A DNA stretch of 64,000 nucleotides from positions 1,178,001 through 1,242,000 of the forward strand of contig NZ_CP109013.1 in NCBI RefSeq assembly GCF_036226745.1, given 5' to 3'. Below the pieces are notes generated by a model. It saw only the letters and a list, made by a program, of their open reading frames with translations. It ran no database searches and was not told the DNA's origin. Source of the DNA: Streptomyces sp. NBC_00683. GTDB taxonomy: Bacteria; Actinomycetota; Actinomycetes; Streptomycetales; Streptomycetaceae. Shown one piece after another: positions 52,685 through 56,415 of this stretch. The position numbers and the translations under genes are program-made. Numbering within the stretch: position 1 is the first letter of the stretch; each line of letters opens with the position of its first letter.

Positions 52685-54367
52685 ATGGCTTCTACCGAGG
52701 GAAACTCCGTTACGAGAACTGAGCAGCGCACCGTGTCCGGAATCTGGGACCTGGCCCCCTACCCCGTGATCGTGGCCGACCAGGTCGGTGCCGTCGCCAT
52801 GGTGAATCCTGCCGCGGTCTGCCTCCTGGGCGACGTGCTGCCGGGGACGCGCATGGAGGAGGCCGTTCCGGACTGGCTGGCGCGGGCCCATCAGGAGACG
52901 TTGGTGCATGCCGGGCTCCCGACGCAGAGCTCTCAGGACGCAGCGGCTCTCCGCTCGGTTTCCGGGCGGATCTCGGCGCAGAGCTTCGAGGCGCATCCCA
53001 CCTGGGGCCAGGACGGGAACGTGGTGTGGTGGCTGGTCGACGACACCGACCGGCGGCTCGCCGAGGAAGCGCTCGCCGCGGAGCGGGAACGCACCATGTT
53101 CCTCGCGGAGGCGTCCAACGTGCTGCTGGCTTCGCTGAACACGGACCGGTGCATGCGCGCCACCGCTCGGCTCGCCTCGGAGTACCTGGCCGACGTCGCT
53201 GTGGTCGTCGCCCCCGCGTCCGGCCAGAAGCTGCCCGTGGCGCACGCCGCCCCGGGCCAGGACGTCACCCGCACCCTCGTCGCCGCGGACGCCGCGCAGG
53301 TCCCGGGTCTCAGCGAAGCGCTGCAGGGGTTTCCGCCCGTACCCTCCCGGTGGATCGATCCGGCGGCCCTGCCCGACTGGGTGCTTCCCGAGGACTTCAC
53401 CGGAACGATCGGGTCGGTCGTGGTCACTCCCCTGCCCGGCCACGGTGTGCCCGCCGGGGCCCTGATCCTGCTGCGCGGGACAGCGCAGAGCGGCTTCACG
53501 GAGAACGAGGAGGTCTTCGCCCGGCTCTTCGCCGCCCGGGCCGGCGCCGCCCTCTCGGCAGCCCGGCTCTATGCCGAGCAGAACGACATCACGCAGACCC
53601 TCATGCGGGACCTGCTGCCGCCGCGGCTCCACCGTGTGAACGGTGTCGAGTTCGCCGGCGCCTACCAGCCGGCCGGCGACAGGGAACGCGTGGGCGGGGA
53701 CTTCTACGACGTCCACCCCGGCAGCACCGACTCCGAAGCCTCCCTCGTCATTCTCGGCGACGTCTGCGGCAAAGGTCTGGACGCGGCCGTCCTGACCGGC
53801 AAGATCCGCAACACCATGCAGGCGCTCATGCCCATGGCGGAGGATCACGAACGGATGCTGCAGCTCCTCAACGGCGCACTCCTCAACTCCCACCACACGC
53901 GCTTCGCGACCATGGTCATGGCCTCGGTCCGGCGCACGAAGAACCAGGTCCGACTGCGTCTCACCTCGGCCGGCCATCCTGCCCCGCTGCTGGTGCGGAC
54001 CGACGGCAGCGTCGAGGAGATCCGGACCCGCGGCACCCTGGTCGGCGCCCTCCCGCACATCGAGGCGAAATCCGTCGAGGCGGTCCTCCTTCCCGGAGAG
54101 ACGTGCCTGCTCTACACCGACGGCATCACCGAGGCCAGGGGCGGACCGCTCGGCGACGAGATGTTCGGCGAGGAGCGCCTGAAGCGGGCGCTGTCGCAGT
54201 GCGCCGACATGCCCGGTGAGGCCGTCGTCGAGCACATCCAGATGCTGGCCGCGCAGTGGCTGCGCAGCGGCCGCCACGACGACATGGCGGTGGTGGCGAT
54301 CACCGCACCCCGTACCACCCACCTGAGCGCGGTGAACGGCCACACACGGGGCAGGTACACCGCATGA
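52685..54367 (+). CDS. PAS-GAF-PP2C (SpoIIE-type) phosphatase of the B12 partner-switch operon
   Basis: 560 aa. The PAS-like N-terminus is at residues about 15-100 (WDLAPYPVIVADQVGAVAMV), GAF at about 130-290 (FLAEASNVLLASLNTDRCMR, FTENEEVFARLFAARAGAAL), and PP2C at 310-545. Metal-site motifs GGDFYDVH, ILGDVCGKGLDAAVL, LLYTDGITEARGG and HDDMAVVAI are complete, so it should be active. ATG 52685 lacks a clear ribosome site; GTG 52733 is possible. It overlaps the B12 gene by ATGA and likely dephosphorylates the STAS protein. Confidence 0.88.
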   Translation: MASTEGNSVTRTEQRTVSGIWDLAPYPVIVADQVGAVAMVNPAAVCLLGDVLPGTRMEEAVPDWLARAHQETLVHAGLPTQSSQDAAALRSVSGRISAQSFEAHPTWGQDGNVVWWLVDDTDRRLAEEALAAERERTMFLAEASNVLLASLNTDRCMRATARLASEYLADVAVVVAPASGQKLPVAHAAPGQDVTRTLVAADAAQVPGLSEALQGFPPVPSRWIDPAALPDWVLPEDFTGTIGSVVVTPLPGHGVPAGALILLRGTAQSGFTENEEVFARLFAARAGAALSAARLYAEQNDITQTLMRDLLPPRLHRVNGVEFAGAYQPAGDRERVGGDFYDVHPGSTDSEASLVILGDVCGKGLDAAVLTGKIRNTMQALMPMAEDHERMLQLLNGALLNSHHTRFATMVMASVRRTKNQVRLRLTSAGHPAPLLVRTDGSVEEIRTRGTLVGALPHIEAKSVEAVLLPGETCLLYTDGITEARGGPLGDEMFGEERLKRALSQCADMPGEAVVEHIQMLAAQWLRSGRHDDMAVVAITAPRTTHLSAVNGHTRGRYTA

Positions 54368-55458
54368 ACGTGATGACCGAGCGGAGCCACGAACTCCGGA
54401 CGTTGCGGGACCAACTGTGGGCGGCCGTGACCCGCCGGGACGAGCACGGGGCCGTAGACGTCGTGTTCACTGCCCTGGAAAACGGGATGGAGGCCGAGAA
54501 CGCCCTGCTGGACCTCATCGCACCCGTGCAGGCGAAAGTCGGCTCCGAGTGGGCGGCCAACCGGCTCACCGTCGCCCAGGAACACGCCGCGAGCGCCATC
54601 ACCGAGCGCGTCATCGCAGCCCTCGCCCATCGCCCCGCAGCCCGGCCCACGCCCCGACTCGGCCGTGTCACGGTCGCTTGCGTGGACCAGGAATGGCACG
54701 TCCTCCCCGCCCGCCTCCTCGCCGAGGTCCTCACTCTCAGGGGCTGGCAGGTCGACTTCCTCGGTGCCCAGGTGCCCACCCCGCACCTCATCGCCCACCT
54801 GCACAGCAGCGGGGCAGACGCCGTAGCCCTCTCCTCCACCCTGCCCACCCGGCTGCCCGCGGCTCACGCCGCGATCAGCGCGTGCAAAGCCGTCGGCGTA
54901 CCTGTCCTGGCCGGCGGCGCCGCCTTCGGGCCCGACGGCCGCTACGCCCGCAGACTGGGCGCCAACGCCTGGGCCGCCGACGCGCGCAGCGGAGCTCAGC
55001 AGCTCGCGGACGGGATCCCCATGCACAGCCTCACCGAAGGCCGGCAGCAGTTCGACGACCTTCCGCACCTCGCCGACCAGGAGTACACCCTGGTCGCCCG
55101 CGCCCAGGGTCAGCTCGTCAAGCAGGTACTGGCACACCTGGAGGAGCGCATTCCCGCCATGGCCTCCTACACCGACCAGCAACGCGAACGCACCGCCGAG
55201 GACATCGCCCACATCGTCGAGTTCCTGGCCGGCTCCCTGTACGTCGACGACGACGACCTGTTCACCACCTTCATGACCTGGACCGCGGGCATCCTCTCCG
55301 CACGCCGGGTCCCCGCCCGGTCGCTGGATCCCGCCCTGGACGCCCTTGCCACCGAGCTCAAGGACTTCCCCCGTGCCACGCGTCTGCTGAACCGGGCCCA
55401 ACTCGCCCTGGACGGCGCCATCACCACCACCGGCCGACACCCCGGAGCCTTCGCATGA
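54364..55458 (+). CDS. Stand-alone B12-binding, CarH/LitR-like photosensory protein
   Basis: 364 aa. The helical cap domain has Trp63, nine residues, then Glu73-His74: the W-x9-EH motif of adenosylcobalamin photoreceptors. The Rossmann domain has Glu110-x-His112 (VDQEWHVLPARLL), matching the E-x-H cobalt-ligand motif of CarH, though the following Gly is Pro. It lacks the MerR HTH. Residues about 235-364 are an extra helical domain (RTAEDIAHIVEFLAGSLYVD, TTFMTWTAGILSARRVPARS). Overlaps the phosphatase and STAS genes by 4 bp each, implying it senses light or B12 for the partner switch. Confidence 0.87.
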   Translation: MNVMTERSHELRTLRDQLWAAVTRRDEHGAVDVVFTALENGMEAENALLDLIAPVQAKVGSEWAANRLTVAQEHAASAITERVIAALAHRPAARPTPRLGRVTVACVDQEWHVLPARLLAEVLTLRGWQVDFLGAQVPTPHLIAHLHSSGADAVALSSTLPTRLPAAHAAISACKAVGVPVLAGGAAFGPDGRYARRLGANAWAADARSGAQQLADGIPMHSLTEGRQQFDDLPHLADQEYTLVARAQGQLVKQVLAHLEERIPAMASYTDQQRERTAEDIAHIVEFLAGSLYVDDDDLFTTFMTWTAGILSARRVPARSLDPALDALATELKDFPRATRLLNRAQLALDGAITTTGRHPGAFA

Positions 55459-55877
55459 CCGCACAGCCCAGCCGGCCCTTCACCCTCGTCGTCGAAGCAG
55501 GGCCGGGCACCGCACGCCTCCATCTCGTCGGCGACCTCGACTACGACACCAGCGGAGAACTCACCCGCCAGGCCGACGTCTGCCTGACCGAGATTCCCGA
55601 CCTGCGCGAGCTGCACCTCGACTGCGCACGGCTCCGGGTGTGCGACTCCATGGGCGTCGCCACGCTCCTGATGATCCACCGCCGGACCAGCGCCCGGAAG
55701 ACAGCGCTCCATCTGGACAACCCCCCGCCCTTCCTGGAACGCATCCTCGACCTCACGGGCATCCGGCAGCTCTTCGTGCACGCGCCCGCGTCCGAGCAGG
55801 ACGAGCAGACACACACGAACGAAGCTGGGCCCACCTCGCACCCGCCCACCGCTCCGACGCGCAGGCCCACCGTCTGA
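55455..55877 (+). CDS. STAS domain anti-sigma factor antagonist
   Basis: 140 aa. STAS fold: ARLHLVGDLDYDTSGELTRQ, then LHLDCARLRVCDSMGVATLL, where Ser65 in DSMG is the expected phosphorylation site. RILDLTGIRQLF closes the fold, and a 30-residue polar tail follows. Substrate of an RsbW-like kinase and of the PP2C enzyme upstream. ATG 55455 overlaps the B12 gene stop, so it is translated from the same operon. Confidence 0.92.
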   Translation: MTAQPSRPFTLVVEAGPGTARLHLVGDLDYDTSGELTRQADVCLTEIPDLRELHLDCARLRVCDSMGVATLLMIHRRTSARKTALHLDNPPPFLERILDLTGIRQLFVHAPASEQDEQTHTNEAGPTSHPPTAPTRRPTV

Positions 55878-56004
55878 CCGGACGCCGGACTCTCGGCTTC
55901 CGCCCGCGCTCCTCCAGGGACGACACCGGATGAGTTAGCCCCCTCGCGATCGGGGCAGGAGCAATTCACCGGAGCAAAGCGTCACAGCGATGGGGGTTCA
56001 GAAC

Positions 56005-56415
56005 ATGAGTCGGCCGCACATCACGAGGGAACGACGAAGCGAGCACGCCCGGCGCACCACGCGTCCGGCCACGGCTGCACAAGCACGCGACGACATGCGC
56101 GAGTTCTTCTCGGAGCTGTCGCCCGCCCCCAGCCAGGAGTGCGTCGACAACGCGGCCCTGGTGGTCTCCGAGCTGGTGACGAACGCGCTACGGCACGCGG
56201 GGGGCCTCACCGCGATGAGCCTGGCCGCGGATCCGGTCACGCTGGAGATCGTCGTGCGGGACCCGAGCCACGCACCGCCGCGCGAGCGCCCGCCGGACCT
56301 GAGCGGGGGTGGGGGCGGATTCGGCTGGCCCCTGGTCCGGTCCCTCGCCCGCACGGTCACCGTCGATCCCTCCGGGCGCGGCGGCAAGTGCGTACGCGCC
56401 GTCCTCAGCCGGTGA
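56005..56415 (+). CDS. RsbW-like ATP-binding protein (anti-sigma/serine kinase type)
   Basis: 136 aa. HATPase_c_2 with N-box LVVSELVTNALRHAGG, G1 VVRDPSHAPPRERP and G2 GGGGFGWPLVRSLA. A short basic N-terminus precedes it. Such proteins phosphorylate STAS antagonists and hold sigma factors. ATG 56005 has GGGGG 9 nt upstream; ATG 55990 is an alternative. It lies 127 bp after the STAS gene with no sigma gene beside it, so its partner is elsewhere or non-sigma. Confidence 0.88.
   Translation: MSRPHITRERRSEHARRTTRPATAAQARDDMREFFSELSPAPSQECVDNAALVVSELVTNALRHAGGLTAMSLAADPVTLEIVVRDPSHAPPRERPPDLSGGGGGFGWPLVRSLARTVTVDPSGRGGKCVRAVLSR

Follow-up and report, generated by a model that had tools for sequence, protein, structure and literature searches.

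Photocobilins and partner switches

The photocobilins were published in 2024 as a family of photoreceptors that use both vitamin B12 and biliverdin (PMC10979010), and the passages of that paper on individual members described (i) SasPcob, which bound adenosylcobalamin (AdoCbl) and biliverdin, was sensitive to green light and, when bilin was present, also to red light, and passed from a dimer in the dark to a monomer in the light; (ii) AbDPcob, in which light activated the fused diguanylate cyclase; and (iii) mixtures of the cyclase domain with AbPcob or with SasPcob, where effects were seen in trans and the sign of the SasPcob effect depended on bilin. The same passages called the function of stand-alone photoreceptors 'less clear' and already suggested, from genome context, an interaction of SasPcob with STAS, SpoIIE, and PP2C proteins, while the photocobilin-related passages of PMC11796333 mentioned neither phosphatase nor STAS. 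The present analysis concerned a 64,000-nucleotide stretch (hereafter the window, numbered from its first base) of Streptomyces sp. NBC_00683, corresponding to positions 1178001–1242000 of a single 8,519,659-base contig (accession number NZ_CP109013.1), in which a stand-alone photocobilin gene overlapped a PP2C phosphatase gene; the pair probably forms a light switch of two genes whose output goes to a partner-switching pathway, with photocobilin acting on PP2C and PP2C on STAS.

RsbU/RsbV/RsbW and SpoIIE/SpoIIAA/SpoIIAB are partner switches that combine a PP2C phosphatase with a STAS protein bearing a D-S motif; the locus shared these components with them, and it differed in having a separate B12/bilin photoreceptor as input and in that no kinase gene was assigned. 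CarH carries a DNA-binding domain; CarH/LitR (5C8A, 5C8D-F, and 3WHP) shared with the window protein the cap plus Rossmann B12 module and the motifs W-x9-EH and E-x-H, but CarH had no photoglobin domain and the match was far weaker.

SasPcob (8J2W and 8J2X) and the window protein shared the domain order, 46% identity, all eight AdoCbl/bilin residues, the stand-alone form, and a predicted STAS/SpoIIE/PP2C association; they differed in the organism of origin, and for the window protein the PP2C gene overlap and its conservation were measured here. AbDPcob (8J2Y, domain) had the same photoreceptor module, shown there to regulate an enzyme, but according to the passages of PMC10979010 this enzyme was a fused GGDEF and the bilin Asp was His; its identity to the window protein, measured here, was 31%. 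The initial annotation of the locus had named no characterised B12 input to partner switches: the literature searched, most subscription journals lying outside its coverage, showed no experiment in which a photocobilin was tried on a phosphatase, but the association as such had already been proposed in the passages of PMC10979010. The photocobilin family and its proposed STAS/SpoIIE/PP2C association are thus known already, and the measured PP2C partnership is new.

Organization of the locus

Four co-directional genes spanned 52685–56415, as determined from the sequence and an open reading frame (ORF) check:

52685..54367, + strand: PAS-GAF-PP2C (SpoIIE/RsbU-type) phosphatase, 560 amino acids (Pfam SpoIIE, 140.8 bits)
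54364..55458, + strand: stand-alone photocobilin, 364 amino acids, with predicted four-helix cap, Rossmann B12 domain, and photoglobin (bilin) domain (phmmer and AlphaFold)
55455..55877, + strand: STAS anti-sigma-antagonist-type protein, 140 amino acids (Pfam STAS_2, 50.6 bits; STAS, 41.2 bits)
55990..56415, + strand: HATPase_c_2 protein, 141 amino acids (Pfam HATPase_c_2, 48.8 bits)

The PP2C and B12 protein genes overlapped by the four bases ATGA at 54364–54367, as did the B12 protein and STAS genes at 55455–55458, and the ATPase gene started after a 112-base gap 3' of the STAS gene; the four genes and both overlaps lay where the initial annotation had placed them. A promoter/terminator scan, of a kind that omits many promoter types, found none.

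Identity of the B12 protein

By sequence and model, the B12 protein is a stand-alone member of the photocobilins. Its best phmmer matches among solved structures were SasPcob 8j2x (E 8.3e-85) and 8j2w (E 8.8e-85) from Saccharothrix syringae; it matched 8j2y, the photocobilin domain from an Acidimicrobiaceae bacterium, at E 1.9e-41 and CarH-type PDB entries far more weakly (E 4e-11 to 7e-10). The AlphaFold model, with a mean predicted local distance difference test (pLDDT) score of 84.0, gave template modeling (TM) scores by query and by target of 0.85 and 0.93 against 8j2w (46% identity) and 0.80 and 0.88 against 8j2y (31% identity), compared with 0.42–0.49 by query against CarH entries. Since the matches to 8j2w/8j2x and 8j2y were nearly full length, the C-terminal helices are the photoglobin (five-helix bilin) domain, which in SasPcob binds biliverdin: the C-terminal helical region described earlier as a gain is real but is this known domain and not a new one, and a CarH relative with a novel tail was rejected on the same grounds (phmmer and AlphaFold model). 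The protein thus displayed the defining photocobilin features, namely a CarH-type B12 module fused to photoglobin, W-EH and E/DxH motifs, and the bilin Asp and Trp; of the initial label 'stand-alone CarH-like B12 sensor', the cap and cobalt-ligand motifs held, but the family is photocobilin.

Pfam B12-binding and B12-binding_2 exceeded their cut-offs, NCBIfam CarH reached 50.5 bits against a cut-off of 400, and Pfam reported no helix-turn-helix (HTH) family, which agreed with the annotated absence of a MerR HTH and left the protein without an N-terminal MerR DNA-binding domain by this search. An MtbC-type methyltransferase corrinoid protein was rejected at 27.8 bits against the NCBIfam MtbC cut-off of 350; several photocobilin relatives bore the name 'methanogenic corrinoid protein MtbC1' in one source, which looks like a misnomer. 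Homologues numbered 1832, and among the 120 of them that were listed, the nearest named relatives came from Streptomyces. The NBC_00683 genome contained one photocobilin copy at E 0.001 and encoded a heme oxygenase and a CobA/BtuR adenosyltransferase; co-occurrence of heme oxygenase was discarded as a test of bilin use, because its presence in 267/295 genomes of the genus means that it cannot discriminate bilin users.

Linkage and co-inheritance of PP2C and photocobilin

Two sets of loci were compared: (i) 80 close loci with 54–77% identity, being the best 80 of 102 found with query peptide patterns, a procedure that favours relatives (mostly Streptomyces, Mycobacterium/Mycolicibacterium, and Nocardia; also Actinacidiphila, Actinoallomurus, Actinospica, and Nonomuraea) and (ii) 40 divergent loci (32 class and 8 genus matches) with photocobilin identity of about 30–57%, hand-picked from weaker matches, those left out being mostly fragments or on short contigs. 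Locus counts were uncorrected for relatedness, and the protein searches of genomes scored only the best first-look candidates.

A gene for a PP2C of the same type as in the window was located directly upstream of photocobilin on the same strand in 79/80 close loci (78 by script, plus L079 by tblastn at 64% identity with a frame shift at the tail) and in 36/40 divergent loci, two of the latter being exceptions in form (a C-terminal fragment in L166 and a PP2C in two frames in L168); in 69 of the 79 close loci, photocobilin could start at an ATG or GTG that overlaps PP2C by four bases. The gene order was therefore kept well beyond strain NBC_00683, recurring too widely among the compared loci to be due to chance.

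In a FastTree phylogeny of the phosphatase domain, all 114 linked PP2Cs (113 loci plus the window) formed one exclusive clade with local support of 0.934, outside which fell 28 of the 35 remaining SpoIIE proteins encoded by this genome (its SpoIIE matches total 37; as loci were available for 30 of these, 28 entered the tree), nine proteins of a second SpoIIE type (eight loci plus the window; see below), and seven further locus SpoIIE proteins. Seven of the 120 loci stood outside the clade count and the correlation that follows: L120, L155, L157, L158, and L164, where no PP2C was found; L166, with its fragment; and L131, where PP2C was present but the domain piece fell below the length filter. 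Photocobilin and PP2C distance matrices correlated at r 0.947 over the 113 loci, a value reached in 0/999 permutations, and at r 0.844 and 0.904 within the 78 close and 35 divergent loci, respectively.

A survey of 295 congeneric genomes (photocobilin at E 1e-30 and PP2C at E 1e-70) found photocobilin in 111 and PP2C in 106: both in 105, photocobilin only in 6, PP2C only in 1, and neither in 183. Five of the six photocobilin-only genomes still contained PP2C in some form: it adjoined photocobilin below threshold in G100, G149, and G275, was a fragment in G057, and lay in pieces beside an equally broken photocobilin in G064 (L211). The sixth, G280, had no PP2C, and its photocobilin match began only at residue 99. 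Thus, with few exceptions, the two genes were present or absent together, and PP2C is, from these comparisons, the near-constant partner and probably the target of the sensor.

Two divergent loci (L138 and L176, from G445 and G310) harbored two tandem photocobilin genes behind one PP2C, all copies keeping the bilin Asp. Natural PP2C-photocobilin fusions were rejected as proof of contact, and the three candidates were not used: P0121 (908 amino acids, SpoIIE plus B12 domains) contained, on comparison by eye, an apparent one-base frameshift in the PP2C tail, the simpler explanation since this tail near its end reads in the photocobilin frame; P0123 looks like a gene call starting out of frame upstream; and P0122 showed no PP2C domain.

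The linked phosphatase and a possible enzyme slot

Of the PAS-GAF-PP2C architecture proposed initially, PP2C was confirmed by Pfam, GAF was below cut-off (18.6 of 22.4 bits), and PAS, which Pfam did not find in this protein, came from a reading of the AlphaFold model. That model had a mean pLDDT of 82.9 and a predicted TM (pTM) score of 0.49, at which domain placement is unsure; its secondary structure read as a PAS-like strand/helix order at 28–119, a long helix, a GAF-like region, and PP2C. Foldseek gave 3ke6, the RsbU and RsbW domains of Rv1364c, as best match, matched the phosphatase domain to those of Rv1364c, RssB, SiaA, and SpoIIE, and listed phytochrome photosensory modules with low TM scores. 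Where the profile match began varied among divergent PP2Cs, inside the PAS region for some but no earlier than the next helix or GAF for the rest, so PAS looks optional. Asp339, Asp359, Asp479, and Asp533, which we take to be the PP2C metal ligands, were invariant in 113/113 photocobilin-linked PP2Cs aligned, and by key residues PP2C and STAS both look active.

Three of the five loci without PP2C carried a GGDEF or GGDEF-EAL gene in its place: a GGDEF protein was encoded directly upstream of photocobilin in L157 and L158, and a CheB-CheR-PAS-GGDEF-EAL protein in L164. In the fused photocobilin enzyme that is known, the enzyme part is a diguanylate cyclase, so the upstream gene looks as though it filled the enzyme slot of a photoreceptor-enzyme split into two genes.

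STAS protein and candidate kinase

The candidate phospho-acceptor of the STAS protein was as follows, its role being presumed from SpoIIAA/RsbV:

55647..55649, + strand: Ser65 codon within D64-S65-M66-G67; Ser in 71/73 STAS proteins (window plus 72 loci), one Thr, one Ala

The Pfam scores of the STAS protein (STAS and STAS_2) and of the window ATPase (HATPase_c_2) exceeded the family cut-offs. NCBIfam ant_ant_sig gave the STAS protein 42.4 bits, below the cut-off of 53.45, and a sequence search of the PDB at E 0.001 found no match for it or for the window ATPase. The genome gave 67 matches to HATPase_c_2, the window ATPase included, and 47 of the 67 exceeded the family cut-off; with NCBIfam RsbA, the window ATPase scored a sub-threshold 42 of 210 bits. 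ATPase genes downstream of photocobilin were on the same strand in 2/80 close loci (L102 and L135) and 0/40 divergent loci, and on the opposite strand in 12/80 and 1/40, respectively. Same-strand STAS and ATPase genes also lay 5' of PP2C in 6/80 close and 6/40 divergent loci. Five Nocardia loci (L112, L114, L116, L118, and L122) had this arrangement with PP2C and photocobilin; the L118 ATPase, the one tested, matched RsbW 6m36 (6e-08) and the ATPase part of Rv1364c (1.6e-14), and with domains checked for L118 only, the Nocardia loci probably represent a complete switch in one operon.

These data bear on a reading of the four window genes as one complete partner switch with the 55990–56415 ATPase as its kinase, which would be compatible with the photocobilin-PP2C switch but which we consider unlikely: the ATPase gene is on the same strand, 112 bases downstream, it encodes an HATPase_c_2 domain, and operons with upstream STAS and ATPase exist in Nocardia and others, but the downstream position is hardly ever conserved and the protein has no PDB sequence match. 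The name 'RsbW-like kinase' and the inclusion of a fourth gene in the unit, both from the initial annotation, were therefore not supported, and from the sequence comparisons a role of the ATPase in the unit is doubtful. Partner switching is nevertheless a fair description of the predicted output.

A second alternative, in which photocobilin would touch the STAS protein, or a STAS assembly resembling a stressosome, while PP2C is merely co-expressed, draws on a same-strand STAS gene directly following within 800 bases in 65/80 close loci and on a precedent for a globin-STAS tie, the RsbR globin domain having been used as photoglobin outgroup in the relevant passages of PMC10151467. It appears improbable, given that no STAS gene was found directly downstream in 33/40 divergent loci (6/40 have STAS and ATPase upstream), where PP2C stays upstream in 36/40, and that the three cyclase-type enzymes above occupy the place of PP2C.

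Chromophore residues

The eight SasPcob residues W61, E71, H72, E106, H108, H137, D270, and W296 corresponded to W63, E73, H74, E110, H112, H141, D280, and W306 of the window protein, all identical, and the annotated motifs Trp63-x9-Glu73-His74 and Glu110-x-His112 were correct to the residue, aligning with SasPcob W61, E71-H72, E106, and H108. Conservation was counted over 80 close sequences and 42 divergent sequences from the 40 divergent loci:

54550..54552, + strand: Trp63 codon (SasPcob W61, stacks on AdoCbl ribose); W in 80/80 close and 41/42 divergent
54580..54585, + strand: Glu73-His74 codons (SasPcob E71-H72, adenosine pocket and dimer interface); 80/80 and 42/42
54691..54699, + strand: Glu110-Trp111-His112 codons, His112 being the predicted lower cobalt ligand (SasPcob H108); His and Glu each 80/80 and 41/42
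55201..55203, + strand: Asp280 codon (SasPcob Asp270, key biliverdin contact); D in 79/80 close (one E) and 26/42 divergent
55279..55281, + strand: Trp306 codon (SasPcob Trp296, contacts bilin D ring and corrin); W in 80/80 and 33/42

The position of H141 (SasPcob H137) was kept in 76/80 close and 24/42 divergent sequences. The bilin Asp was replaced by Glu in the close locus L110 and by G, Y, S, H, F, Q, V, A, or T in 16/42 divergent sequences (between L151 and L173), with nearly all B12 residues kept, so the window photocobilin groups among the bilin-competent members, and some divergent members appear to have lost the bilin contact and kept the B12 site; the pattern would fit either recurrent loss of bilin use or its late acquisition. 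That the sensor instead reads AdoCbl supply or redox state, light chemistry being a by-product, would suit both the absence of the bilin Asp from 17/122 locus sequences that retain B12 residues and the different activities of apo and AdoCbl-bound dark AbDPcob in the passages of PMC10979010, but seems a poor prospect beside an almost invariant adenosyl-pocket Trp and Glu-His and the photoactivity described in the same passages for the close relative SasPcob.

Neighboring genes

Two further genes were optional neighbours of the unit:

51195..52448, + strand: second SpoIIE-family protein, 417 amino acids (Pfam SpoIIE, 127.4 bits)
50684..51232, - strand: MarR-family regulator, divergent from the second SpoIIE gene (Pfam MarR, 52.8 bits)

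The second SpoIIE type occurred in 17/80 close and 2/40 divergent loci (L151 and L159), and the MarR gene in 18/80 and 2/40, respectively. At the second metal-site Asp position, the second type had Asn in 8/9 aligned proteins and, by motif over 19 locus proteins, Asn in 17 and Asp in 1, with the motif not found in 1; it is possibly a pseudo-phosphatase. A third SpoIIE-family protein was encoded at 39707–40939, 13 kb from photocobilin. The window also contained two tRNA-Pro(GGG) genes (16531–16605 and 56536–56610, - strand) 40 kb apart and 98.7% identical over 79 bases; a tRNA-bounded island was rejected because, beyond these 79 bases, the flanks were dissimilar except for two short weak matches.

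Proposed mechanism

In the photocobilin-PP2C switch that we favor, photocobilin would bind AdoCbl, with biliverdin as a probable second chromophore; illumination with green light, or with red light via bilin, would break the Co-C bond and turn dimer into monomer, as expected from homology with SasPcob; and the converted photocobilin would contact the upstream-encoded PAS-GAF-PP2C directly and act on it, a contact proposed because of the gene overlap, the co-inheritance, and the GGDEF enzyme in the same place where PP2C is lacking. By family function, PP2C would then set STAS phosphorylation, dephosphorylating STAS probably at Ser65, and STAS would in turn free or hold a putative RsbW/SpoIIAB-type kinase. 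The setting of STAS phosphorylation by light is an inference from sequence, and the direction, activation of the phosphatase by light, is a guess by analogy with the photocobilin-activated diguanylate cyclase.

Several points weigh against this mechanism. The distance correlation (r 0.947) includes shared species ancestry, with no control for relatedness, and the clade test took its PP2Cs from a profile built on linked PP2Cs, with an outgroup mainly from one genome; co-inheritance, moreover, shows a functional tie and not contact. In G110, PP2C was present but the 10 kb extracted contained no photocobilin. In two PP2C-less loci no cyclase was found upstream either: L120, within the 927 bases covered there, and L155, which showed no upstream output domain and where the scanned neighbours included GatA/GatB-type genes on the opposite strand. 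The 16/42 divergent sequences without the bilin Asp mostly kept PP2C, so bilin is not essential to the pairing. STAS was downstream in only 7/40 divergent loci, a count from a profile that may miss distant ones, and so may be one of several outputs. By adjacent-ATPase conservation and the PDB sequence search, no kinase clearly belonged to the window operon.

Significance

A wider proposition, to which we give about even chances, is that photocobilin and its dedicated PAS-GAF-PP2C constitute an ancient co-inherited actinobacterial light switch, the unfused counterpart of the photocobilin-cyclase fusion, with a slot exchangeable between PP2C and GGDEF and with green-to-red light setting STAS phosphorylation. 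As the present counts point to the upstream PP2C, the function of stand-alone photocobilins becomes a direct in-vitro question. If the switch operates as proposed, it would be a light-controlled protein phosphatase and, as far as the literature was searched, the first demonstrated case of a partner switch with B12/bilin input, and about one-third of the species sampled in the genus (111/295), together with other actinobacteria, could couple green/red light to STAS-type regulation.

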